Assembly: GCA_947452295.1 (NCBI GenBank)
Contig: CANGCK010000010.1
Span: 1-64,000 of the forward strand
From: Sphingobacteriia bacterium
Lineage (GTDB): Bacteria; Bacteroidota; Bacteroidia; Chitinophagales; Chitinophagaceae
DNA: 64,000 nt
Direction of reading: 5' to 3'
Below the pieces are notes generated by a model. It did no database searches, was not told where the DNA came from, and worked only from the letters and a program-made list of their open reading frames with translations. Shown in pieces: positions 31,593 to 50,678 of the stretch (positions are counted from its first letter, which is position 1; the number at the start of each line of letters is the position of its first letter). The position numbers and the translations under genes are program-made.

Positions 31593-34010
31593 TTAATTTT
31601 TCTTTACATATTTTTCTAGCCACTCAAATTGTTCCCAAAGCGTATGTAAAATGTTTTCTTTACCTCTGTATCCATGTGCTTCGTAAGGCAAATACACAAA
31701 GCGAACTATACCTCCATTGCCTTTAATAGCAGCAAATAAACGTTCGCTATTAATTGGGAAGGTTCCGGTATTGTCATCTGCTTCTCCGTGTATTAAAAGG
31801 ATGGGTGTTTTAATTTTATCGGCATAACTAAATGGACTCATCTCATAATACAATTGTGGTGCTTGCCAGTAAGTTCTATCTTCATTCTGAAATCCAAATG
31901 GAGTAAGGGTTCTATTATAAGCACCACTTCTTGCTATACCTGCTTTAAATAAATTGGTATGCGCTAGTAAGTTAGCAGTCATAAATGCGCCATAGCTATG
32001 ACCACCTACGGCAACCCTTTTTTTATCTGCAACGCCTCTATTCGATAATTCGTTGATGGCGGCTTCGGCATTTAATTGAAGTTGTTCTATAAAACTGTCA
32101 TTCGGTTTTTTATCGCTACTAGCTGCTACAATGGGCATTTCTGCATTGTCTAAAATAGCATAACCTTGTGTAACATAATAAATAGGCGACCCCCAACTAA
32201 GTGTTGTAAAACGGTCTTTGCTTCCTCTTATTTGTGCTGCATCTGAAGCCGAGTTAAATTCTCTTGGATATGCCCAAATTAATAGGGGAAGTGGACCATC
32301 TTTTTCTTTATTATACCCCTTGGGTAAGTATAAATCGCCAGTTAAATCTACTCCATCAGCTCGTTTATATTTTACTTTTTCTTTCGTAACACCGAATAAA
32401 GCAGGATATGGATTACTGAAATTTGTAATGGCTTTTTCCGAAAAATCACCAACTAAGTTTTTAATATAGTAATTAGGCACCGCTGTTTGAGATTCTTTTC
32501 TTGTAAGGACGATCAATTTATTTGGATCTAATACTTCTGTAACATATTCAAATAAGCCTTCTGAGCAGCGCCAAATGATTTCATTCTGGAGGGTACTTAA
32601 ATTAAATCTGGCCAAAAAAGGCAAATCTCCTTTTGGGGAAGAACCAGTTGTATTATTCATTAACAAATAATTTCCATTGTTAATGGTTAGCAATACATCT
32701 CTTCCGTACTTATTTTTTATCATTACAGGTGTGCCAGGATTATTGTAAGCATCAGTTAAATTTCGTTCATAGAGTAATGTGGTTTTGCCAGTTTCGGAAT
32801 TATATCGGCTTACGCTGGTAATTTGTTTGATTCGAGAAATTTCTTGTACTAAAGCAATCAAACTATTCCCCCAATTGGCACCTGCATACCTATATTTGGT
32901 TTTAAATAACTCTTTAGGGGTGCCGGTAAAAGGCGCACTTATTGAATAAACTACGTCGTGAAAAGGCATTTCTTTTTTTATCAATCCACTATCTAACGGA
33001 GATGCCCAGGTAATAGTGGCTGCTTCATCGTCTTTCCAATCGAAGTTTCTTGGAACATTTTGTGTATTATCATAACCAGATGGAGTACCTTCTGTAGAAG
33101 GTAATTCCGCCAATACTTTTACCAATTTGCCGGATAAATCGGTGATGTTGATGACAGATGGAAAACCATTTGCAGTAACCAAATAAGAAAATGGTTTTTG
33201 AATTTGTTTGAGTAATAAATAGTTTTTATCGGGCGATATACTAAAACTGCTTAATATAGCGGGTTTACCTACATTTGTTTCTATCCCATTTTTATTTTGA
33301 ACGAGTTGAACTGTTGCATAAAATTCGAAAATTTGTTCATCATAAGGACTTTTAATGAGGTCTTGAAAAGTTGCACTAGGGGCAGCTTTTCCTAAATTTT
33401 GTTGGATGGTTGGTCCCTTTGGAGTGATAGGCTTTTTAGGAGCATTTGCCGCCGTTTGGGTGGTGGCTTTATATAAAATCGTATTATCATCTACCCACAA
33501 ATATGAAGACCCCAATATATTATTTACCGGCTTTTTATTGATCCTTACCGCTTTTTTTGTAGCAACATCAATAATATAAAGATCTACTTGTGTGGCTGTT
33601 GTATGTGTAAATGCAATTTTATTTTCCGATGGGCTCCAACTAACATTTCCTGCCAATAAATTATTGGGTAATCCATTAATGGTATACTCTTTACTTTGAT
33701 TTACATCCTTCAAAATAAAATTATTGATAAAGTTTTGTCTACTTAAAGAAAAATTTCCGGGATTAAGTCTTAGTCCAGCAACGCGTAATTCTGGTTGTCC
33801 TAATTCTTCCACTGTTGGATAGGAATTACGTTCACTTACTAACATCCAACTTGCCTTTCCATTAATACTTATTGATGGGGTTGGTTTAGCTAACAATAAA
33901 TCGGCTATTTCTTTAGGTGGCACTTGGTAACCAAGTGCATTTTGTGCTATCAATGTATAAACTGATAGTAAAAATGTAATACAAAAACTACATATAATTT
34001 TCTTTTGCAT
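31593..34010 (-). CDS. S9 family (prolyl oligopeptidase) serine peptidase
   Basis: VAVGGHSYGAFMTANLLAH; HGEADDNTGTFP; YEAHGYRGKEN catalytic motifs. Confidence 0.93.
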   Translation of the reverse strand: MQKKIICSFCITFLLSVYTLIAQNALGYQVPPKEIADLLLAKPTPSISINGKASWMLVSERNSYPTVEELGQPELRVAGLRLNPGNFSLSRQNFINNFILKDVNQSKEYTINGLPNNLLAGNVSWSPSENKIAFTHTTATQVDLYIIDVATKKAVRINKKPVNNILGSSYLWVDDNTILYKATTQTAANAPKKPITPKGPTIQQNLGKAAPSATFQDLIKSPYDEQIFEFYATVQLVQNKNGIETNVGKPAILSSFSISPDKNYLLLKQIQKPFSYLVTANGFPSVINITDLSGKLVKVLAELPSTEGTPSGYDNTQNVPRNFDWKDDEAATITWASPLDSGLIKKEMPFHDVVYSISAPFTGTPKELFKTKYRYAGANWGNSLIALVQEISRIKQITSVSRYNSETGKTTLLYERNLTDAYNNPGTPVMIKNKYGRDVLLTINNGNYLLMNNTTGSSPKGDLPFLARFNLSTLQNEIIWRCSEGLFEYVTEVLDPNKLIVLTRKESQTAVPNYYIKNLVGDFSEKAITNFSNPYPALFGVTKEKVKYKRADGVDLTGDLYLPKGYNKEKDGPLPLLIWAYPREFNSASDAAQIRGSKDRFTTLSWGSPIYYVTQGYAILDNAEMPIVAASSDKKPNDSFIEQLQLNAEAAINELSNRGVADKKRVAVGGHSYGAFMTANLLAHTNLFKAGIARSGAYNRTLTPFGFQNEDRTYWQAPQLYYEMSPFSYADKIKTPILLIHGEADDNTGTFPINSERLFAAIKGNGGIVRFVYLPYEAHGYRGKENILHTLWEQFEWLEKYVKKN

Positions 34011-34095: not shown

Positions 34096-34127
34096 TTTGC
34101 TTTTATACTTTCTCCGTTGTAGTTTTG
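34096..34127 (+). promoter_or_regulatory. predicted Bacteroidetes-type promoter for his leader: TTTG (34096-34099) N20 TAGTTTTG (34120-34127)
   Basis: Exact match to TTTG-N19..21-TAnnTTTG, a few nt upstream of the leader ATG. Confidence 0.75.
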
Positions 34128-34135
34128 TTACACAA

Positions 34136-34186
34136 ATGATAATATTAATACATATACACCATCATCATTACTTGCCCATTGGGTAG
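34136..34186 (+). CDS. his operon leader peptide MIILIHIHHHHYLPIG*
   Basis: ATG ATA ATA TTA ATA CAT ATA CAC CAT CAT CAT TAC TTG CCC ATT GGG TAG; 5 His of 16 codons; upstream of hisG with attenuator helices. Confidence 0.88.
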   Translation: MIILIHIHHHHYLPIG

Positions 34187-34248
34187 GCTGTTGATGTGTA
34201 TATATGCTATACTAAACATTGAAGCTTACCATTAGGTAGGCTTTTTTT
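34152..34248 (+). promoter_or_regulatory. his transcription attenuator (leader RNA with alternative helices)
   Basis: AGCTTACC (34223-34230) can pair with GGTAGGCT at 34182-34189 (antiterminator) or with the copy at 34235-34242 (terminator); His codon run 34152-34164 can pair with 34192-34203. Confidence 0.85.
34222..34248 (+). terminator. attenuator terminator hairpin upstream of hisG
   Basis: AAGCTTACC-ATTA-GGTAGGCTT followed by T run. Confidence 0.85.
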
Positions 34249-34260
34249 ATTTTAATAATT

Positions 34261-35139
34261 ATGAGTAATCAAGAACCTAACAAAACTAAGTTAAAACTAG
34301 CCATTCAAAAGAGTGGCAGATTGTATGAAGATTCAATTCGTCTGTTAAAAGAATGTGGGATAGATGTAAGTAATGGAATGAATAAATTAAAGGCAGATGC
34401 AACTAATTTTCCACTTGAAGTGTTTTTTTTGAGGGATGATGATATCCCTCAATATGTAGAAGATGGAGTAGCGGATATTGGCTTTGTTGGAGAGAATGTA
34501 GTATTTGAAAAAAATAAAAAGGTAATAATAACTGAGAAACTAGGATTTGGTAAGTGTAGATTGAGTATTGCCATTCAGCGAAATGAATCCTATTCAGGAG
34601 TAGATTATTTAGCTGGCAAAAAAATTGCTACCAGTTATCCGGTTATTTTAGCAGATTACTTATCCAAAAACAATATAGAAGCGGAGATTCATGAAATCAG
34701 CGGGAGTGTTGAAATAGCACCTGGCATTGGATTAGCCGATGCTATTTGTGATTTAGTAAGCAGCGGCTCTACCTTATTTATGAATGGATTGAAAGAATCT
34801 GAAGTTATTCTTCAATCACAAGCGGTATTAATAAAAAATGAATTGCTTGATGCTTCGAAGCAACAGTTATTAGATCGGTTAATCTTTAGAATTGAATCAG
34901 TTAAAAAAGCTAAAAACAATAAGTATATTCTGTTAAATGCGCCTAATAATAATTTACAACAAATAATTAGTTTATTACCAGGCATGAAAAGTCCAACTGT
35001 ATTGCCTTTAGCAGAAGCGGGATGGAGCAGTGTGCACAGTGTTTTGAATGAAAATGAATTTTGGGATATCATTGAACAATTAAAAGCAGCAGGTGCCCAG
35101 GGTATTTTAGTAATTCCAATTGAGAAAATGATTATTTAA
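34261..35139 (+). CDS. hisG: ATP phosphoribosyltransferase (long form)
   Basis: LKLAIQKSGRLYEDSIRLLKECGI; DIGFVGENVV; DLVSSGSTLFMNGL. Confidence 0.96.
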   Translation: MSNQEPNKTKLKLAIQKSGRLYEDSIRLLKECGIDVSNGMNKLKADATNFPLEVFFLRDDDIPQYVEDGVADIGFVGENVVFEKNKKVIITEKLGFGKCRLSIAIQRNESYSGVDYLAGKKIATSYPVILADYLSKNNIEAEIHEISGSVEIAPGIGLADAICDLVSSGSTLFMNGLKESEVILQSQAVLIKNELLDASKQQLLDRLIFRIESVKKAKNNKYILLNAPNNNLQQIISLLPGMKSPTVLPLAEAGWSSVHSVLNENEFWDIIEQLKAAGAQGILVIPIEKMII

Positions 35140-35261: not shown

Positions 35262-36545
35262 ATGATTATAAACATATTTCCATCCAGGGCAACATGGAAA
35301 AACATATTGTCGAGACCAACATTCAATAACGATACGCTGGTTGAAAAGGTGGCGCATGTATTAAAGGAAGTAAAAAATACGGGAGATCAATCTATTCATC
35401 TGTATACTAAACAATTTGACGGCATTGATTTACCTGATTTTTCGGTAACTGCAGAAGAAGTTAATGCTGCAATAAAGTTGGTATCATCCGATTTGAAGGC
35501 TGCAATTGAATTAGCTGCTAAAAACATACGTACATTTCATGAAAAACAAGTAAGTACGTTAGAAGAGATTTCAACAATGCCAGGAGTAAAGTGCTGGCGA
35601 AAATCGGTTGGTATAGAAAAAGTAGGTTTATATATACCTGGTGGAACAGCGCCATTGTTTTCAACTATTTTAATGTTGGGTATACCGGCTGTTATTGCTG
35701 GTTGTAAAGAAATTGTGTTATGCAGTCCACCAGATAAAAATGGTCAACTTAATCCTGCAATTTTGTATGCGGCCAAATTAGTAGGGATTCGAACTATTTT
35801 TAAAATTGGTGGCGTGCAAGCTATTGCCGCCATGGCTTACGGTACCGAAACGGTTCCTCAAGTATATAAAATATTTGGTCCAGGCAATCAATATGTAACT
35901 TGTGCAAAACAATTAATACAACAAGAAGGGATTGCCATTGATATGCCGGCTGGGCCAAGTGAAGTATGTGTGATTGCCGACGAGTATGCAGTTCCTGAAT
36001 TTGTTGCCGCAGATTTACTGAGTCAGGCTGAACATGGAACTGATAGTCAGGTATTATTGGTAAGTACCAACCAGTTTATAGTAGATGAGATTTTGAAAGA
36101 AGTAGATGAACAGTTAACTGTATTGCCAAGAAAAGATATTGCATCTCAGGCACTTAAAAATAGCCAAGCTATTATTGTAGAAAATATAGCAGCAGCCATT
36201 GAATTGGTAAATGAATATGCGGCAGAACATTTAATTGTTGCTTGTAATAATGCAGATGAAATAGCTGATAAAATAGTTAATGCCGGTTCAATTTTTTTAG
36301 GTAATTACTCTCCCGAAAGTGTGGGTGATTATGCTAGTGGAACCAATCATACTTTGCCCACTAATGGATTTGCTAAAGCATATAGTGGTGTAAGTGTTGA
36401 TAGTTTTGTAAAAAAAATCACTTATCAAAAAATAACTCCCGATGGGTTGAAAAATATAGGCAATGCCGTTGAAATAATGGCTGCTGCAGAAGGGTTAGAC
36501 GCGCATAAAAGAGCGGTAAGTGTTCGATTGAAAACCATTGAATAA
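35262..36545 (+). CDS. hisD: histidinol dehydrogenase
   Basis: VGLYIPGGTAPLFSTILMLGIPA; DMPAGPSEVCVIAD; QAEHGTDSQ. Confidence 0.97.
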   Translation: MIINIFPSRATWKNILSRPTFNNDTLVEKVAHVLKEVKNTGDQSIHLYTKQFDGIDLPDFSVTAEEVNAAIKLVSSDLKAAIELAAKNIRTFHEKQVSTLEEISTMPGVKCWRKSVGIEKVGLYIPGGTAPLFSTILMLGIPAVIAGCKEIVLCSPPDKNGQLNPAILYAAKLVGIRTIFKIGGVQAIAAMAYGTETVPQVYKIFGPGNQYVTCAKQLIQQEGIAIDMPAGPSEVCVIADEYAVPEFVAADLLSQAEHGTDSQVLLVSTNQFIVDEILKEVDEQLTVLPRKDIASQALKNSQAIIVENIAAAIELVNEYAAEHLIVACNNADEIADKIVNAGSIFLGNYSPESVGDYASGTNHTLPTNGFAKAYSGVSVDSFVKKITYQKITPDGLKNIGNAVEIMAAAEGLDAHKRAVSVRLKTIE

Positions 36546-36632
36546 TTATTTAGAAAAAATGGCTTTTCCTATTGTTAAGTACATTGTATAAAGATTACAA
36601 AAAAATGATTTTTAAATAGTTCAATAAATAAT

Positions 36633-37694
36633 ATGTCATTTGATATTAATCGGTTAATTAGACCAAATATTGCAAAGCTATTGCCGTATTCATCTGCCAG
36701 AGATGAATTTAGTGGAGAAGCAAAAGTGTTTTTAGATGCCAATGAAAACAGTTTGGGGTCTCCTTTAATGAAATGGTATAATCGGTATCCCGATCCACAT
36801 CAAAAAGCGGTTAAGGACAAAATTGCAGCAATAAAACGCATACCTGCTCCGCATATATTTTTAGGTAATGGAAGTGATGAATGCATTGATGTTATTTTTC
36901 GTTGCTTTTGTGAACCGGGGTTAGATGAAGTAATTATTTGTCCACCTACCTATGGGATGTATGAAGTAAGTGCCAATATTAATCATGTTGGGGTAAAAAA
37001 AGTACCCTTGTTGCCAGATTTTCAGTTGGATTTGGTTCATCTAGAAAATGCCATTACAGATCATACTAAAATTATTTGGATATGTTCACCCAATAATCCT
37101 ACAGGTAATTCATTAAATAGGGTAGATATTGAAACGGTCTTGAACAATTTTAATGGCTTAGTAGTTATAGATGAGGCATATATTAATTTTGCCAAGCAAA
37201 AATCTTTTGTACAAGAATTAAGTGAATATGGCAACTTAATTGTGCTCCAAACTTTCAGCAAAGCTTGGGGTTTAGCAGGGTTAAGGTTGGGTATGGCCTT
37301 CGCTTCATTGTCCATCATAGAAGTGTTGGACAAAGTGAAGCCACCATATAACATTAGCCAAGCATCGCAAGAATTGGCATTAAAAGCTTTGGAAGAAATT
37401 GGACAGGTGAATGATATGATTAAAATAATTGTTGACATGCGCGAAGCATTGGCAGCGGTTTTCTTGTCGATGCCAACGGTAGAGAAAGTCTACCCTTCGG
37501 ATGCCAATTTTATTTTGGTGAAACTAGCAGATGCTCGTAAAGTATATGATTTTCTGCTAACTAAAGGAATTGTTTTGCGTGATAGAAGTAATGTTGCGTT
37601 ATGTGAAAATTGTTTAAGAATTACTATTGGAACTGAGCAAGAAAATACATTATTAGTTGAGGCGATGCATGATTGGTATCAATTGAATCCTTAA
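36633..37694 (+). CDS. hisC: histidinol-phosphate aminotransferase
   Basis: LGNGSDECID; SPNNPTGN; VIDEAYINF; FSKAWGLAGLRLG. Confidence 0.96.
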   Translation: MSFDINRLIRPNIAKLLPYSSARDEFSGEAKVFLDANENSLGSPLMKWYNRYPDPHQKAVKDKIAAIKRIPAPHIFLGNGSDECIDVIFRCFCEPGLDEVIICPPTYGMYEVSANINHVGVKKVPLLPDFQLDLVHLENAITDHTKIIWICSPNNPTGNSLNRVDIETVLNNFNGLVVIDEAYINFAKQKSFVQELSEYGNLIVLQTFSKAWGLAGLRLGMAFASLSIIEVLDKVKPPYNISQASQELALKALEEIGQVNDMIKIIVDMREALAAVFLSMPTVEKVYPSDANFILVKLADARKVYDFLLTKGIVLRDRSNVALCENCLRITIGTEQENTLLVEAMHDWYQLNP

Positions 37695-37718
37695 TTTTAT
37701 ACTTATAAAAAACAAACT

Positions 37719-38960
37719 ATGCGTATATCTTTTTTCCTATTTTCAATAATCATGTTGCAAGTGTCTTGTTGGGCACAATTTAACGATGTTGTGATAAAAA
37801 CACCGAATGGGTTTTCTACCACTAATGTGGCATGGGACTTTGGTCGTGTTCGTCATATTGTTGTAAATAGCAATGGTGATTTGTACATGAAGTTAGAAAA
37901 GCTATATAATGGTAAAGGCATTGTTAGATTACGAGATTTGAATAAGGATGGCAAAATGGACGATACATTGCGCTTTGGAAATTATGTTGGAACAGGGATT
38001 GCCATTAAAAATGGGTATTTATATGCATCATCTAATTCAGAAGTATTTCGTTATAAGTTAGATGCACAACAGAATATTGTTGATACAGAAAATCCAGAGA
38101 AAATTATTACAGGATTGGTAGATAAAAGACAGCATGCTTCTAAATCGATCACGTTAGACGAGGCAGGTAATATTTATGTAAACATCGGCGGGCCTAGTAA
38201 TGTATGTCAGGAACAAGATCGACAAAAAGGTTCTAAGGGAATGATGCCTTGTCCGCTTTTAGAAACTGCGGGTGGAATTTGGCAATTTAAAGCCGATAAA
38301 TTAAATCAGTCTTATGCTGAGGGAATTCGCTATGCAACTGGGATTAGAAATTGTGTAGGATTAGATTGGAACAAAGAGGTAAATGAATTGTTTATAACGG
38401 TACATGGAAGAGATATGTTATATCAAGATTACCCGACATTATATGATCAAAAACGAGGTGCTGAATTACCGTCAGAAACTATGTATATGGTTAAGAAAGG
38501 AGATGATTGTGGATGGCCTTATGTGCATTGGGATCATATTCAACATAAAAAAATATTGAATCCGGAATATGGCGGTGATGGGAATAAAACCGGTGTAGAA
38601 AATGCGATCAGTCCATTGATGGGTTTCCCTGGTCACATGGCTCCTAATGCTTTGTTGATTTATACGGGTAATCAATTTCCAGAAAAATACAAAAATGGAG
38701 CATTCATTGCTTTTCATGGAAGTTGGAATAGAGCGCCTGAAAACCAAGAAGGTTTTTATGTGGTATTTGTACCTATGAAAAACGGTAAGCCTACAGGCAA
38801 TTGGGAAGTTTTTGCAGATGGTTTTTCGGGAATGGAAAAAGTAACCAATTTAAGTAGTGCCAAGCATCGTCCATGTGGTTTGGCTCAGGGTCCGGATGGA
38901 GCTATTTATGTTTCGGATGATGTAAAAGGCCATGTTTGGAAAATTCAATACAATCAATAA
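37719..38960 (+). CDS. secreted PQQ-dependent sugar (sorbosone/glucose) dehydrogenase-like beta-propeller protein
   Basis: Signal peptide; ATGIRNCVGLDWN; GDDCGWPYVHWD; AFHGSWNRAP; GPDGAIYVSDD. Confidence 0.9.
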   Translation: MRISFFLFSIIMLQVSCWAQFNDVVIKTPNGFSTTNVAWDFGRVRHIVVNSNGDLYMKLEKLYNGKGIVRLRDLNKDGKMDDTLRFGNYVGTGIAIKNGYLYASSNSEVFRYKLDAQQNIVDTENPEKIITGLVDKRQHASKSITLDEAGNIYVNIGGPSNVCQEQDRQKGSKGMMPCPLLETAGGIWQFKADKLNQSYAEGIRYATGIRNCVGLDWNKEVNELFITVHGRDMLYQDYPTLYDQKRGAELPSETMYMVKKGDDCGWPYVHWDHIQHKKILNPEYGGDGNKTGVENAISPLMGFPGHMAPNALLIYTGNQFPEKYKNGAFIAFHGSWNRAPENQEGFYVVFVPMKNGKPTGNWEVFADGFSGMEKVTNLSSAKHRPCGLAQGPDGAIYVSDDVKGHVWKIQYNQ

Positions 38961-38972
38961 GACCAAAGCTAC

Positions 38973-39386
38973 ATGAGAAAAATAGTTGTAAGTATTGTAT
39001 TATTACTCGGATTTATAATGATGGTTCAGTCTCAAACAATAGATATAAAAACCAAATCCAGTATTTCTAGAGGAAAAATTGTATATGAAAAATATTGCCT
39101 TACCTGTCATCAAGCTGATGGTGGGGGCGTTCCAAGAATGAATCCCCCCATCATTCAAACAACTTATGTATCGGGGAGTAAGGAACGATTAATTGGGATT
39201 GTATTGAAAGGACTTAATCAGCCAATTGAAGTAAATGGTGATGAGTATGAAAATCCAATGGCATCGCATGCTTATTTGAGTGATTTGCAAATTGCAGATG
39301 TATTAACATTTGTACGAAATTCATTTGGCAATAAATATCCAGCTGTATTGCCTTCGGAAGTTAAAGTGGTAAGAGCAAAAAAATAG
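38973..39386 (+). CDS. secreted c-type cytochrome
   Basis: Signal peptide; single CLTCH heme motif; distal Met region NPMASHAYLSD. Confidence 0.93.
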   Translation: MRKIVVSIVLLLGFIMMVQSQTIDIKTKSSISRGKIVYEKYCLTCHQADGGGVPRMNPPIIQTTYVSGSKERLIGIVLKGLNQPIEVNGDEYENPMASHAYLSDLQIADVLTFVRNSFGNKYPAVLPSEVKVVRAKK

Positions 39387-39388
39387 TG

Positions 39389-40519
39389 ATGCAAAGAATT
39401 TTATTTATAGACAGAGATGGAGTGGTTTTAGAAGAGCCACCGCAAGATTTTCAGGTAGATAGTATTGCAAAAACAAGCTTTGTGAAAGGGGCAATTTCGC
39501 AGCTTTCGCATATCGCTTCGGATTTTGATTTTTATAAAGTGATGGTAACTAATCAAGATGGATTGGGAACTGATAGCTATCCTGAACATGATTTTCATCC
39601 ATATCATGATTTAATGGTACGAACATTGGCTGGAGAAGGATTTGTATTCGATGAAATGATCATAGACAGAACATTCGCATCTGAAAATAAACCTACTCGA
39701 AAACCGGGAACTGCTTTGTTAAATCATTTTATCAACAATGAAGCGTTTGATATTGCCAACTCTTTTGTAATTGGCGACAGATGGAGTGATATACAATTAG
39801 CTAAAAATTTGGGATGTAAAGCAATTTATTTGAAATCTGGATTGCATACATTAACAGCTGAACAAACGGATTTATACAAAGACACCATTGTGCTAGAAAC
39901 TACCGAATGGCAAGCTATTTATGCATTTCTTAAATTAGGCCTTAGAAAAGTAGCACATCAACGGAATACCAATGAAACGAGTATAAGTATATCACTTAAT
40001 TTAGATGGGTCTGGTAAATCTTCTATTCAAACAGGGATTGGTTTTTTTGATCATATGTTAGACCAGATTGCTCGTCATGGGAAAATGGATTTAAGTATTG
40101 AGACCAAGGGGGATTTACATATTGATGAGCACCATACCATTGAAGATACGGGTATTGCATTAGGAGAGGCCTTTTCATTAGCACTTGCCGATAAAAGAGG
40201 TATGGAGCGATATGGTTTTGCATTACCTATGGATGAATCGGAAGCAAAAGTGTTAATAGATTTTGGTGGAAGAAATTGGATGGTATGGAATGCCGTATTT
40301 AACCGAGAGAAAATAGGAGAGATGCCCACTGAAATGTTTTTTCATTTTTTTAAATCATTCAGTGATGCAGCCAAGTGTAACTTAAATATAGAATGTAAGG
40401 GTGATAATGAACACCATAAAATAGAGGCCATTTTTAAAGCTTTTGCTAAAGCAATACGGATGGCAGTAAAACGAGACCCATTATCAAATCATTTACCTTC
40501 AACCAAAGGTGTTTTATAG
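39389..40519 (+). CDS. hisB: bifunctional histidinol-phosphatase / imidazoleglycerol-phosphate dehydratase
   Basis: HAD FIDRDGVVLEEP N-term; GIGFFDHMLDQIARHG, DEHHTIEDTGIALG, EHHKIEAIFKAFAKA C-term. Confidence 0.96.
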   Translation: MQRILFIDRDGVVLEEPPQDFQVDSIAKTSFVKGAISQLSHIASDFDFYKVMVTNQDGLGTDSYPEHDFHPYHDLMVRTLAGEGFVFDEMIIDRTFASENKPTRKPGTALLNHFINNEAFDIANSFVIGDRWSDIQLAKNLGCKAIYLKSGLHTLTAEQTDLYKDTIVLETTEWQAIYAFLKLGLRKVAHQRNTNETSISISLNLDGSGKSSIQTGIGFFDHMLDQIARHGKMDLSIETKGDLHIDEHHTIEDTGIALGEAFSLALADKRGMERYGFALPMDESEAKVLIDFGGRNWMVWNAVFNREKIGEMPTEMFFHFFKSFSDAAKCNLNIECKGDNEHHKIEAIFKAFAKAIRMAVKRDPLSNHLPSTKGVL

Positions 40520-41186: not shown

Positions 41187-41243
41187 ATGAAATTAATAAA
41201 CAAACATTGGTGGTGGCATACTGATTCCTTACTGGGGTTATAA
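41187..41243 (+). CDS. trp operon leader peptide MKLINKHWWWHTDSLLGL*
   Basis: ATG AAA TTA ATA AAC AAA CAT TGG TGG TGG CAT ACT GAT TCC TTA CTG GGG TTA TAA; three tandem Trp codons upstream of trpE attenuator. Confidence 0.88.
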   Translation: MKLINKHWWWHTDSLLGL

Positions 41244-41304
41244 TGTCATTGCTGCAATTCAATGTATATAATTTTAAAGCCCCGGATATAATCGGGGCTT
41301 TTTT
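41234..41304 (+). promoter_or_regulatory. trp transcription attenuator (alternative helices)
   Basis: GGGGTTATAATGT (41234-41246) can pair imperfectly with ATTTTAAAGCCCC (41271-41283), competing with the terminator stem. Confidence 0.75.
41276..41304 (+). terminator. attenuator terminator hairpin upstream of trpE
   Basis: AAAGCCCCG-GATATAAT-CGGGGCTTTTTT. Confidence 0.88.
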
Positions 41305-41336
41305 GTTGAAATAATTGAATAATATGCTAGATTAAT

Positions 41337-47971: not shown

Positions 47972-48562
47972 GTGAATTTGGTAATCATTAAATACAATGC
48001 AGGTAATATACAGTCTGTTTTATTTGCTCTTGAAAGAATTGGTGCAACCGCTACAGTAACAGATGATTTAGACATTATTCAATCTGCTGACAAAGTGATT
48101 TTCCCAGGTGTTGGCGAAGCAAGTACAGCAATGAACTATTTAAAATCCAAAAAAATGGATCAATTGATAGTTAAACTAAAACAACCGGTGTTAGGTATTT
48201 GCTTGGGGATGCAGTTGATGTGTAAATATAGCGAGGAAAACAATACCGATTGTTTAGGTATTTTTGATGAATCAGTGAAAAAGTTTATTGCATCATCCAA
48301 TGAAATTAAAATACCTCAAATTGGATGGAATAACATTTACCATTTACAATCACCTTTGTTCCATCAAGTTCAAGAAAACAGCTTTTGTTATTTTGTTCAT
48401 GGCTATTATGCTTCATTGGGTGAACATACTATTGCGACTACTAATTATGGAATTGAATACAGTGCGGCTTTAAATAAAAATAATTTTTACGGCACTCAAT
48501 TTCATCCCGAAAAAAGCGCTTCAATCGGTGAACAAATTCTACAAAATTTTATAAACATTTAA
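47972..48562 (+). CDS. hisH: imidazole glycerol phosphate synthase subunit HisH (GTG start)
   Basis: IKYNAGNIQSV; VIFPGVGEASTAM; GICLGMQLMCKYSEE; YGTQFHPEKS. Confidence 0.95.
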   Translation: MNLVIIKYNAGNIQSVLFALERIGATATVTDDLDIIQSADKVIFPGVGEASTAMNYLKSKKMDQLIVKLKQPVLGICLGMQLMCKYSEENNTDCLGIFDESVKKFIASSNEIKIPQIGWNNIYHLQSPLFHQVQENSFCYFVHGYYASLGEHTIATTNYGIEYSAALNKNNFYGTQFHPEKSASIGEQILQNFINI

Positions 48563-48566
48563 TCCA

Positions 48567-49283
48567 ATGCAAATTATACCTGCAATTGATATTATAGAGG
48601 GTAAATGCGTTCGGCTTACCCAAGGTGATTATGCACAAAAAAAAATTTATAACGAGCATCCATTAGAAGTTGCTAAAATGTTTGAAGACGCAGGTATTAC
48701 CAGGCTTCATTTGGTTGATTTAGATGGTGCTAAAAAAGGAGAAGTGCAAAACTGGAAAGTTTTGGAATCAATTGCTTCAAATACAAAGTTAGTAATTGAT
48801 TTTGGTGGTGGAATAAAGCGGGAAACTGATTTGAAAATTGTATTAAATGCAGGTGCAGCTATGGCCACCATTGGGAGTTTAGCAGTAAAAAATGCTGATC
48901 TGTTTATAGATTGGGTGAGCACATATGGATCTGATCGATTTTTTTTAGGTGCAGATGTAAGAGATGAAAAGATAGCAGTGGGTGGGTGGTTAGAAACAAC
49001 AGATGTTACGATTGTTGATTTTTTAAAAAATTATTTGCAAAAAGGGATCAACCATGTTTTTTGTACCGATATAAGTAAAGATGGCAAATTAGAAGGCCCA
49101 TCGATTGAATTGTATCAAAATTTGATTCATCAATTGCCCGAATTAAATTTAGTAGCTAGTGGCGGCGTAAGTGCATTAACAGATTTAGTTGCGCTGAAAA
49201 CAATCGGATGTACAGGGGTAATTATCGGTAAAGCCATATATGAGGGTAGAATTTCACTATTGGATTTGTGTGAATTTATTTAA
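48567..49283 (+). CDS. hisA: phosphoribosylformimino-5-aminoimidazole carboxamide ribotide isomerase
   Basis: IIPAIDIIEGKCVRLTQGDY; LHLVDLDGAKKG; CTDISKDGKLEGPS; GVIIGKAIYEG. Confidence 0.97.
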   Translation: MQIIPAIDIIEGKCVRLTQGDYAQKKIYNEHPLEVAKMFEDAGITRLHLVDLDGAKKGEVQNWKVLESIASNTKLVIDFGGGIKRETDLKIVLNAGAAMATIGSLAVKNADLFIDWVSTYGSDRFFLGADVRDEKIAVGGWLETTDVTIVDFLKNYLQKGINHVFCTDISKDGKLEGPSIELYQNLIHQLPELNLVASGGVSALTDLVALKTIGCTGVIIGKAIYEGRISLLDLCEFI

Positions 49284-49305
49284 TGATTAAAAAATAAATA
49301 CTATT

Positions 49306-50064
49306 GTGCTTACAAAAAGAATCATTCCTTGTTTAGATATTAAAGATGGGAGAACAGTTAAGGGAATTAATTTCGAAAATATTCGTGATGCAGGAGATCC
49401 AATTGAATTAGGTGCTTTATATGCCGCACAGGGCGCCGACGAGTTGGTTTTTTTAGACATAACAGCCACCAATGAGCGTAGAAAAACATTGAGTGAATTG
49501 GTTAATAATATCTCTCATCACATTAATATCCCATTTACTGTTGGTGGTGGAATATCATCAGTTGAAGATGTACGTGTTTTACTACAAAATGGTGCTGATA
49601 AAATTTCAGTGAATACTTCAGCATTTAATAATCCAGCATTGCTAAATCAACTGGCATTGGAATTTGGTTCGCAATGTATTGTATTGGCCATCGACACTAA
49701 AATGGAACCCGATGGCAACTGGTATGTTTATTTAAATGGTGGGCGGATAAAAACAAATGTACTTTGTAATGATTGGGCAAGGCAAGGGGTTGATTTAGGT
49801 GTAGGGGAAATATTATTAACCTCCATGAACAATGATGGAACCAAGAAAGGGTTTGCATTAGATATTACCAGACAATTAGCCACTAGTTTGCCAGTACCAG
49901 TAATTGCTTCGGGTGGTGCAGGTACAATGGACCATTTTGTGGATGTTTTTGAAGATGCAAGGGCAGATGCAGCATTAGCTGCCAGTATTTTTCACTATAA
50001 AGAAATTGAAATACCCGTTCTTAAACAATATCTTTCTAAAAAAGGCATTTTTATGCGATTTTAA
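49306..50064 (+). CDS. hisF: imidazole glycerol phosphate synthase subunit HisF
   Basis: [53 protein letters not shown]. Confidence 0.97.
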
Positions 50065-50081
50065 TTCCTGAAATTTGTATT

Positions 50082-50678
50082 ATGACTATTGATTTTGCAA
50101 AATATCCAGATGGACTAGTGCCTGCTGTAATTCAAGATTATTCCACCCATAAAGTATTGATGTTGGGTTTTATGAATGAAGAAGCCTATCAGCTAACCAA
50201 TACATTGGCTAGAGTAACTTTTTATAGTAGAAGTAAACAGCGATTATGGACAAAAGGCGAAGAAAGCGGTAATTTTTTAGAAGTGCGCTCAATTGCTGTA
50301 GACTGTGATAATGATAGTTTATTAATAAAAGTACATCCCTTAGGACCCACTTGTCATACGGGTGCCGATACTTGTTGGGATGAATCCAATCATTCTGATA
50401 ACTTTTTAGAATACCTGGAAGAAATCATTCAATTGCGTAAACAGGCTGGTGTAGAGGAGTCCTATGTAGCTAAAATGTTTGCCAAAGGATTAAATAAAAT
50501 TGCCCAAAAAGTGGGGGAGGAAGCCGTAGAAATGGTAATTGAGGCAAAAGACAACAATGAAGAGCTGTTTTTAAATGAATCTGCTGATCTTCTTTTCCAT
50601 TATTTGCTCTTACTTAACGCAAAAGGCCATAATTTAGCGGAGGTTTTAACAATACTTAAAAAACGTCATTCCAAATAA
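50082..50678 (+). CDS. hisIE: bifunctional phosphoribosyl-AMP cyclohydrolase / phosphoribosyl-ATP pyrophosphatase
   Basis: MLGFMNEEAYQLT; SRSKQRLWTKGEESGN; GPTCHTGADTCW; GEEAVEMVIEAKDN. Confidence 0.96.
   Translation: MTIDFAKYPDGLVPAVIQDYSTHKVLMLGFMNEEAYQLTNTLARVTFYSRSKQRLWTKGEESGNFLEVRSIAVDCDNDSLLIKVHPLGPTCHTGADTCWDESNHSDNFLEYLEEIIQLRKQAGVEESYVAKMFAKGLNKIAQKVGEEAVEMVIEAKDNNEELFLNESADLLFHYLLLLNAKGHNLAEVLTILKKRHSK

Follow-up and report, generated by a model that had tools for sequence, protein, structure and literature searches.

Ribosome-mediated attenuation of the his operon is classical in E. coli. Among the Bacteroidota, Bacteroid-trp is a listed RNA motif (PMC2864571), and the main text of a transcriptome study of F. 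psychrophilum offers clues that operons for amino-acid biosynthesis are under leader-peptide attenuation and reports a structured 5' element of hisG that has no Rfam hit (PMC9723704). A preliminary description of the present locus had implied more novelty than is due, since Bacteroid-trp (RF01692) and, going by that main text, the F. psychrophilum hisG element and its attenuation clues (PMC9723704) were already known. Here we looked at the element upstream of hisG in the window, i.e. the whole 64,000-nucleotide stretch of Chitinophagaceae DNA that was analysed (Table 1).

Judged on its sequence, the element is very probably a ribosome-mediated transcription attenuator of the his operon, and histidine in plenty should halt transcription at this switch ahead of the his genes. 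Ribosome-mediated his attenuators have a leader ORF with His codons before a his gene and an intrinsic terminator, here lying between the leader and hisG, and both features are present at the locus. The third feature of the class, an antiterminator that depends on the position of the ribosome, is found computationally, by folding under ribosome masks and by complementarity of the arms across families.

Table 1. Features of the his leader region, the genes that follow it and the sister leaders of the same genome.
Feature	Position	Strand	Basis or remark
Candidate sigma-A -33 element (Bacteroidota type), TTTG	34096-34099	+	sequence compared with published consensus
Putative Bacteroidota -7 box TAGTTTTG	34120-34127	+	ends 8 nt 5' of leader ATG
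Histidine leader peptide ORF, MIILIHIHHHHYLPIG then stop	34136-34186	+	direct reading; ATG 34136, TAG 34184-34186
Regulatory codons CAT ATA CAC CAT CAT CAT (five His)	34151-34168	+	
Outer 1:2 helix	34152-34164 (His-codon strand) with 34192-34203	+	folding
Inner hairpin CTTGCCC:GGGTAGG	34171-34187	+	sequesters segment 2 without ribosome; 84% of cells paired (95 sequences)
Segment 2, antiterminator 5' strand	34182-34202	+	its GGTAGGCT holds the leader stop TAG
Segment 3, antiterminator 3' strand	34208-34230	+	its AAGCTTACC doubles as terminator 5' arm
Intrinsic terminator (3:4, loop ATTA, T tract)	34221-34249	+	consensus scan, folding, covariation
hisG, ATP phosphoribosyltransferase, controlled gene	34261-35139	+	Pfam PF01634, PF08029
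Remaining first his block	35262-40519	+	
hisD	35262-36545	+	
hisC-like aminotransferase	36633-37694	+	
GSDH-like (glucose/sorbosone dehydrogenase) protein	37719-38960	+	
Cytochrome c	38973-39386	+	
hisB	39386-40519	+	
Trp leader peptide before trpE, MKLINKHWWWHTDSLLGL then stop	41187-41243		terminator about 41277-41306
Phe leader peptide before pheA, MQTKMSNWFYFFFYFFFGRSNRVLFAKA then stop	contig C1		terminator present; TATATTTG 5 nt before leader ATG
Ile/Val-rich leader peptide before ilvE-ilvD-ilvB-ilvN-ilvC block, MTIIIVMVIIIIPVMQGDVL then stop	contig C46, about 26540	-	with terminator
Lys-rich leader peptide, MINNKHTKRIKKPR then stop	contig C53:18818-18939		weak cross-hit of the his-element covariance model R1

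The leader peptide carries five His residues, at codon 6 and at codons 8-11, and the corresponding CAY/His pattern CAYNNNCAYCAYCAYCAY has a single match in the 64 kb where 0 are expected. The neighbouring gene 5' of the leader (31593-34010) lies on the opposite strand, so that the plus-strand terminator at 34221 can serve only a transcript begun in the gap. The promoter, the transcription start, leader translation and the histidine response are all inferred from sequence. A scan for sigma-70 promoters gave 0 sites on the plus strand, as expected for Bacteroidota. The candidate upstream element was matched to the Bacteroidota -33 consensus, TTTG / TAnnTTTG (PMC7366714, PMC6847099), and the -7 box has a G at a position where the revised consensus TAHHTTTG disfavours it. 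As transcription in F. johnsoniae starts 4-5 nt downstream of the -7 box (PMC6847099), the predicted 5' end of the leader RNA lies at its ATG or no more than about 5 nt before it, and for this window at ~34132-34133, i.e. 3-4 nt 5' of the ATG. At 29/30 same-genus loci the TTTG of that box precedes the leader ATG by 4-9 nt; the gap is 4 nt at 16 of the 30 loci and 7-9 nt at 13, and the start site is predicted from this spacing. Leaderless or near-leaderless starts are rare across Bacteroidota: leaderless mRNAs make up 5.5% in F. psychrophilum according to the main text of that study (PMC9723704), and 3.7% of 5' UTRs in B. thetaiotaomicron are shorter than 10 nt (PMC7366714). A leaderless start as a general property of Bacteroidota his leaders was rejected, the -7 boxes found in families f25, f36, f23 and f24 lying nearly all 13-48 nt 5' of the leader ATG.

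On direct reading, every coordinate previously assigned to the leader, the arms, the ATTA loop and the T tract was correct to the base, and the proposed 12-mer duplication (34178-34189 / 34231-34242) is present and extends to 17 nt at 88%. The motif GGTAGGCT thereby occurs twice, at 34182-34189 and 34235-34242, and both copies compete for AGCTTACC (34223-34230). The antiterminator formed with the first copy spans 34182-34230 with about 20 pairs and -18.0 kcal/mol, which is longer than the preliminary description had stated. The terminator that it placed just before hisG was recovered by the consensus scan (34221-34244 with a T tail; 2 terminators in the region vs 0.3 expected) and covaries in relatives. 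The strand folds at -34.5 kcal/mol against -20.4 +/- 3.3 kcal/mol in shuffles (z -4.2). Folded with no ribosome it adopts a long hairpin in which segment 2 is tied up in the inner hairpin, and in this fold the His codons pair with 34192-34203 as had been suggested.

The effect of the ribosome was modelled by barring the stretch it covers from pairing, either with the RNA folded up to 34231, when segment 4 is not yet out, or with the whole leader. Up to 34231, a stall at His codon 6, 8, 9, 10 or 11 gave the antiterminator a probability of 0.99, compared with 0.004 with no ribosome and 0.000 when the ribosome occupied the stop codon. When the whole leader was folded, the terminator reached 0.998 whether the ribosome was at the stop or absent. 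These values bear out the earlier proposal that a ribosome finishing the leader masks the antiterminator arm and favours termination. At equilibrium with segment 4 out, a stalled ribosome left the antiterminator at 0.46-0.56 (codons 9-11) or 0.17-0.25 (codons 6 and 8). As the equilibrium share during a stall is only 0.17-0.56, the switch relies on segments 2 and 3 folding together before segment 4 emerges, an order of emergence which co-transcriptional, classical attenuation also assumes.

The element would then work as follows. Transcription would start at ~34132 and the His-rich leader would be translated almost from the first nucleotide. When charged His-tRNA is ample, the ribosome would reach the stop codon and, this codon being inside the antiterminator arm, cover segment 2, leaving the 3:4 terminator to form before hisG. 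When charged His-tRNA is scarce, a ribosome stalled on codons 6-11 would cover CTTGCCC and leave GGTAGGCT free, segment 2 would pair with segment 3 and the polymerase would continue into hisGDC..B. In the absence of leader translation, segment 2 would be held in the 1:2 structure and termination would again be the default.

We compared the regions upstream of hisG in relatives by counting short ORFs with at least 3 His in 7 residues. Such a leader precedes hisG in 30/30 same-genus loci, with 15 or 16 codons and the parts in the same order, and in 78/80 loci of named relatives; hisG regions lacking the His-rich ORF or covarying helices, which would have spoken against the preliminary description, are thus not what the relatives display. 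The closest named relatives in the genome collection are Sediminibacterium and other Chitinophagaceae, and the genus of the 30 loci is probably Sediminibacterium or a near relative. In a phylum-wide sample of Bacteroidota, made up of 120 loci at which the start of hisG could be located, 81/120 have at least 3 His in 7 residues and 69/120 at least 4, vs 1.3% and 0.2% in shuffles and 0.8% and none on the reverse strand. Over the genus, named and phylum sets the shuffles gave 1.0-1.8% and the reverse strand at most 3.7%. Amino acids other than His departed from shuffled rates by small amounts at most, except for Asn in the genus set, an excess that is no separate signal because Asn is part of the same leader. 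A clear leader was found in 12/21 families of the phylum-wide sample and not found in the other 9/21. A covariance model (R1) built from 95 own-family sequences recovered the element in 113/150 genomes of the family, the model set and the search set overlapping, and had weaker matches in several other families.

Conservation of the structure was examined in an alignment of 95 distinct own-family sequences. For the terminator, 94% of cells are paired and there are 58 double-change cells against 21.5 +/- 3.2 when shuffled (0/500 shuffles reach 58). The 1:2 structure shows pairing in 66% of its cells (inner hairpin 84%), and its 59 double-change cells compare with 42.1 +/- 4.1 in shuffles. In the antiterminator core, which is nearly invariant within the family, pairing reaches 97% of cells; as the core hardly varies, covariation within the family speaks neither for nor against this pairing. 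The slow change would be explained by a three-way constraint, in which segment 3 has to fit both segments 2 and 4 and segment 2 holds the stop codon. Across families, complementarity of segments 2 and 3 beats composition-matched shuffled arms (p<=0.05) at 73% of 164 loci and at 53% of the 60 loci outside the own family. The arm sequences are unrelated between families (GGTAGGC/GCTTACC here, TCAAGCG/CCGTTTGA in f25 and AGACGG/CCGTCT in f24). On these comparisons, the logic of competing arms is kept across families despite different arm sequences.

The his genes of the window belong to an interlaced his-trp cluster with the order leader-hisG-hisD-hisC-(GSDH-like)-(cytochrome c)-hisB, trp leader-trpE-G-D-C-F-B-A, hisH-hisA-hisF-hisIE, in which the trp and late his genes, except trpE, hisA and hisF, were named by eye from the sequence. 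The GSDH-like and cytochrome c genes (37719-39386) are inserted between hisC and hisB. The last four his genes (47972-50678) start 18 nt after trpA, apart from hisGDC-B, and appear to sit downstream of the trp attenuator. If hisH has no promoter of its own, the late his genes would be under the trp attenuator and only the early ones under the his attenuator.

Sister leaders were sought in the own genome in stretches around named genes, and the same layout recurs before trpE, pheA, the ilv block and, in relatives, asd. A leader with WWWH precedes trpE at 22/22 same-genus loci with enough upstream sequence; the trp leader of the window scores under the gathering scores of Trp_leader and Bacteroid-trp (21.9 of 49 bits for RF01692). 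The Lys-rich leader lies directly 5' of asd (aspartate-semialdehyde dehydrogenase) in six other genomes of the family, with the core KHTKxxKK, a terminator and complementary arms, and had no Rfam match. The pattern [TIV]K..KK occurs in a short ORF in 25/35 asd upstream regions of the family (22/29 without the cross-hits) vs 0.3% in shuffles; none of 28 additional asd loci had the leader, and 26 of these belonged to other families. In the own genome asd is on contig C73, which begins 124 nt before the gene, and we infer from the relatives that the leader on C53 is linked to it. This leader looks like an apparently undescribed lysine attenuator, with Lys as the likeliest sensed residue, although the Thr or His codons of the same peptide may also serve. 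At both the asd and ilvE loci, near-identical short units (ACACATGAAATAGCCATAAGCAA...GGCGTATTCCATGTG) separate the leader terminator from the structural gene. They lie at the end of contig C53, at the start of C73 and before ilvE, stand in tandem at one place and look like a dispersed intergenic repeat family.

Other explanations of the locus were weighed against these data. One 113-nt locus might in principle arise by chance, with a CAT-rich ORF and an ordinary terminator happening to fall in an AT-rich gap. However, the leader occurs at 30/30, 78/80 and 81/120 loci where shuffles give about 1-2%, and this, together with 0 pattern matches expected and the covariation, refutes a chance origin, to which we give practically no weight. 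It is very unlikely that the leader peptide instead controls translation of hisG, by coupling, re-initiation or release of the start site, with the hairpin being mRNA structure near the start codon. Short upstream ORFs have been proposed to boost translation of the next gene in Bacteroidetes at a distance of 11-14 nt (PMC4833913); however, the leader stop is 74 nt from the hisG start here and at a variable distance in relatives, a covarying terminator with a T tract stands between the two, and re-initiation does not require two alternative arms.

Since a terminator and an antiterminator by themselves do not prove that the sensor is a ribosome, an attenuator bound by a ligand or protein (riboswitch, T-box-like or TRAP-like) with an incidental ORF was also considered. 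Such a sensor is still less likely, as no Rfam family reaches gathering score here, the His codons are kept where the RNA sequence is otherwise unrelated, and the same layout comes with Trp codons before trpE and Phe codons before pheA. A similarly slight chance is left for an additional role in trans, besides attenuation, of the leader peptide or the short terminated RNA, like peTrpL/rnTrpL of S. meliloti. A leaderless leader peptide and its terminated RNA provide a precedent (PMC7298713) and the C-terminal L-P-x-G stretch shows good conservation among close relatives, but the RNA arms that overlap those codons account for this conservation.

Ribosome-mediated attenuation requires a ribosome close behind the polymerase, and leaders of this kind therefore make transcription-translation coupling directly testable in Bacteroidota, which lack Shine-Dalgarno sequences. 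On balance we lean towards a broader reading, in which Bacteroidota would have widespread leader-peptide attenuators outside Rfam, serving His, Trp, Phe and Ile/Val at the least and, before asd in Chitinophagaceae, lysine, with the leader ORF in this family lying at or a few nt from the 5' end so that ribosomes would load on nearly leaderless RNA without a Shine-Dalgarno sequence. If this is true, transcription and translation would be tightly coupled in Bacteroidota, and the near-leaderless start would provide a natural test of translation initiation in the phylum. The Lys-rich asd leader, if confirmed, would add one more amino acid sensed by leader-peptide attenuation.

At gathering score, Rfam 15 had no family at the his element and none in 20 relatives, yet a His-rich leader stands before hisG in about two thirds of the sampled Bacteroidota loci. 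The search with the Rfam His_leader model that had been proposed for this locus gave no match, RF00514 being absent from the 19 matches at E up to 10, and RF01692 was not among these matches either. Failing this family test leaves the claim of a like mechanism untouched. A weak match to Phe_leader (22 of 55 bits) rested largely on the terminator and was rejected. A literature search, in which coverage of subscription journals was thin, found no fuller description of a Bacteroidota his leader.

Like the enterobacterial his attenuator RF00514, the present element has its His codons clustered within a short leader peptide and mutually exclusive antiterminator and terminator helices before hisG. 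The two probably differ in segment layout: here the leader stop lies inside the antiterminator arm, this arm is a near copy of the terminator 3' arm and the start is predicted to be near-leaderless. Bacteroid-trp (RF01692) is likewise a leader RNA of the Bacteroidota that encodes a short peptide and follows the same logic; Rfam describes it as a tryptophan peptide leader, and it senses Trp and not His. The hisG element of F. psychrophilum is also from the Bacteroidota, upstream of hisG and without an Rfam match, and the main text of that report gives no peptide, mechanism or extent for it (PMC9723704). The Chitinophagaceae element shares the logic, but not the arm sequences, with the f25 loci, a family that is probably Flavobacteriaceae. 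The trpL of S. meliloti also has its leader ORF at the 5' end of the transcript, but it is from an alphaproteobacterium, concerns tryptophan and has a reported start site, whereas the start here is predicted (PMC7298713). The his element thus very probably belongs to a known class. What the present analysis adds is its spread across the phylum, the near-leaderless start that is predicted here and the sister leaders of this genome.
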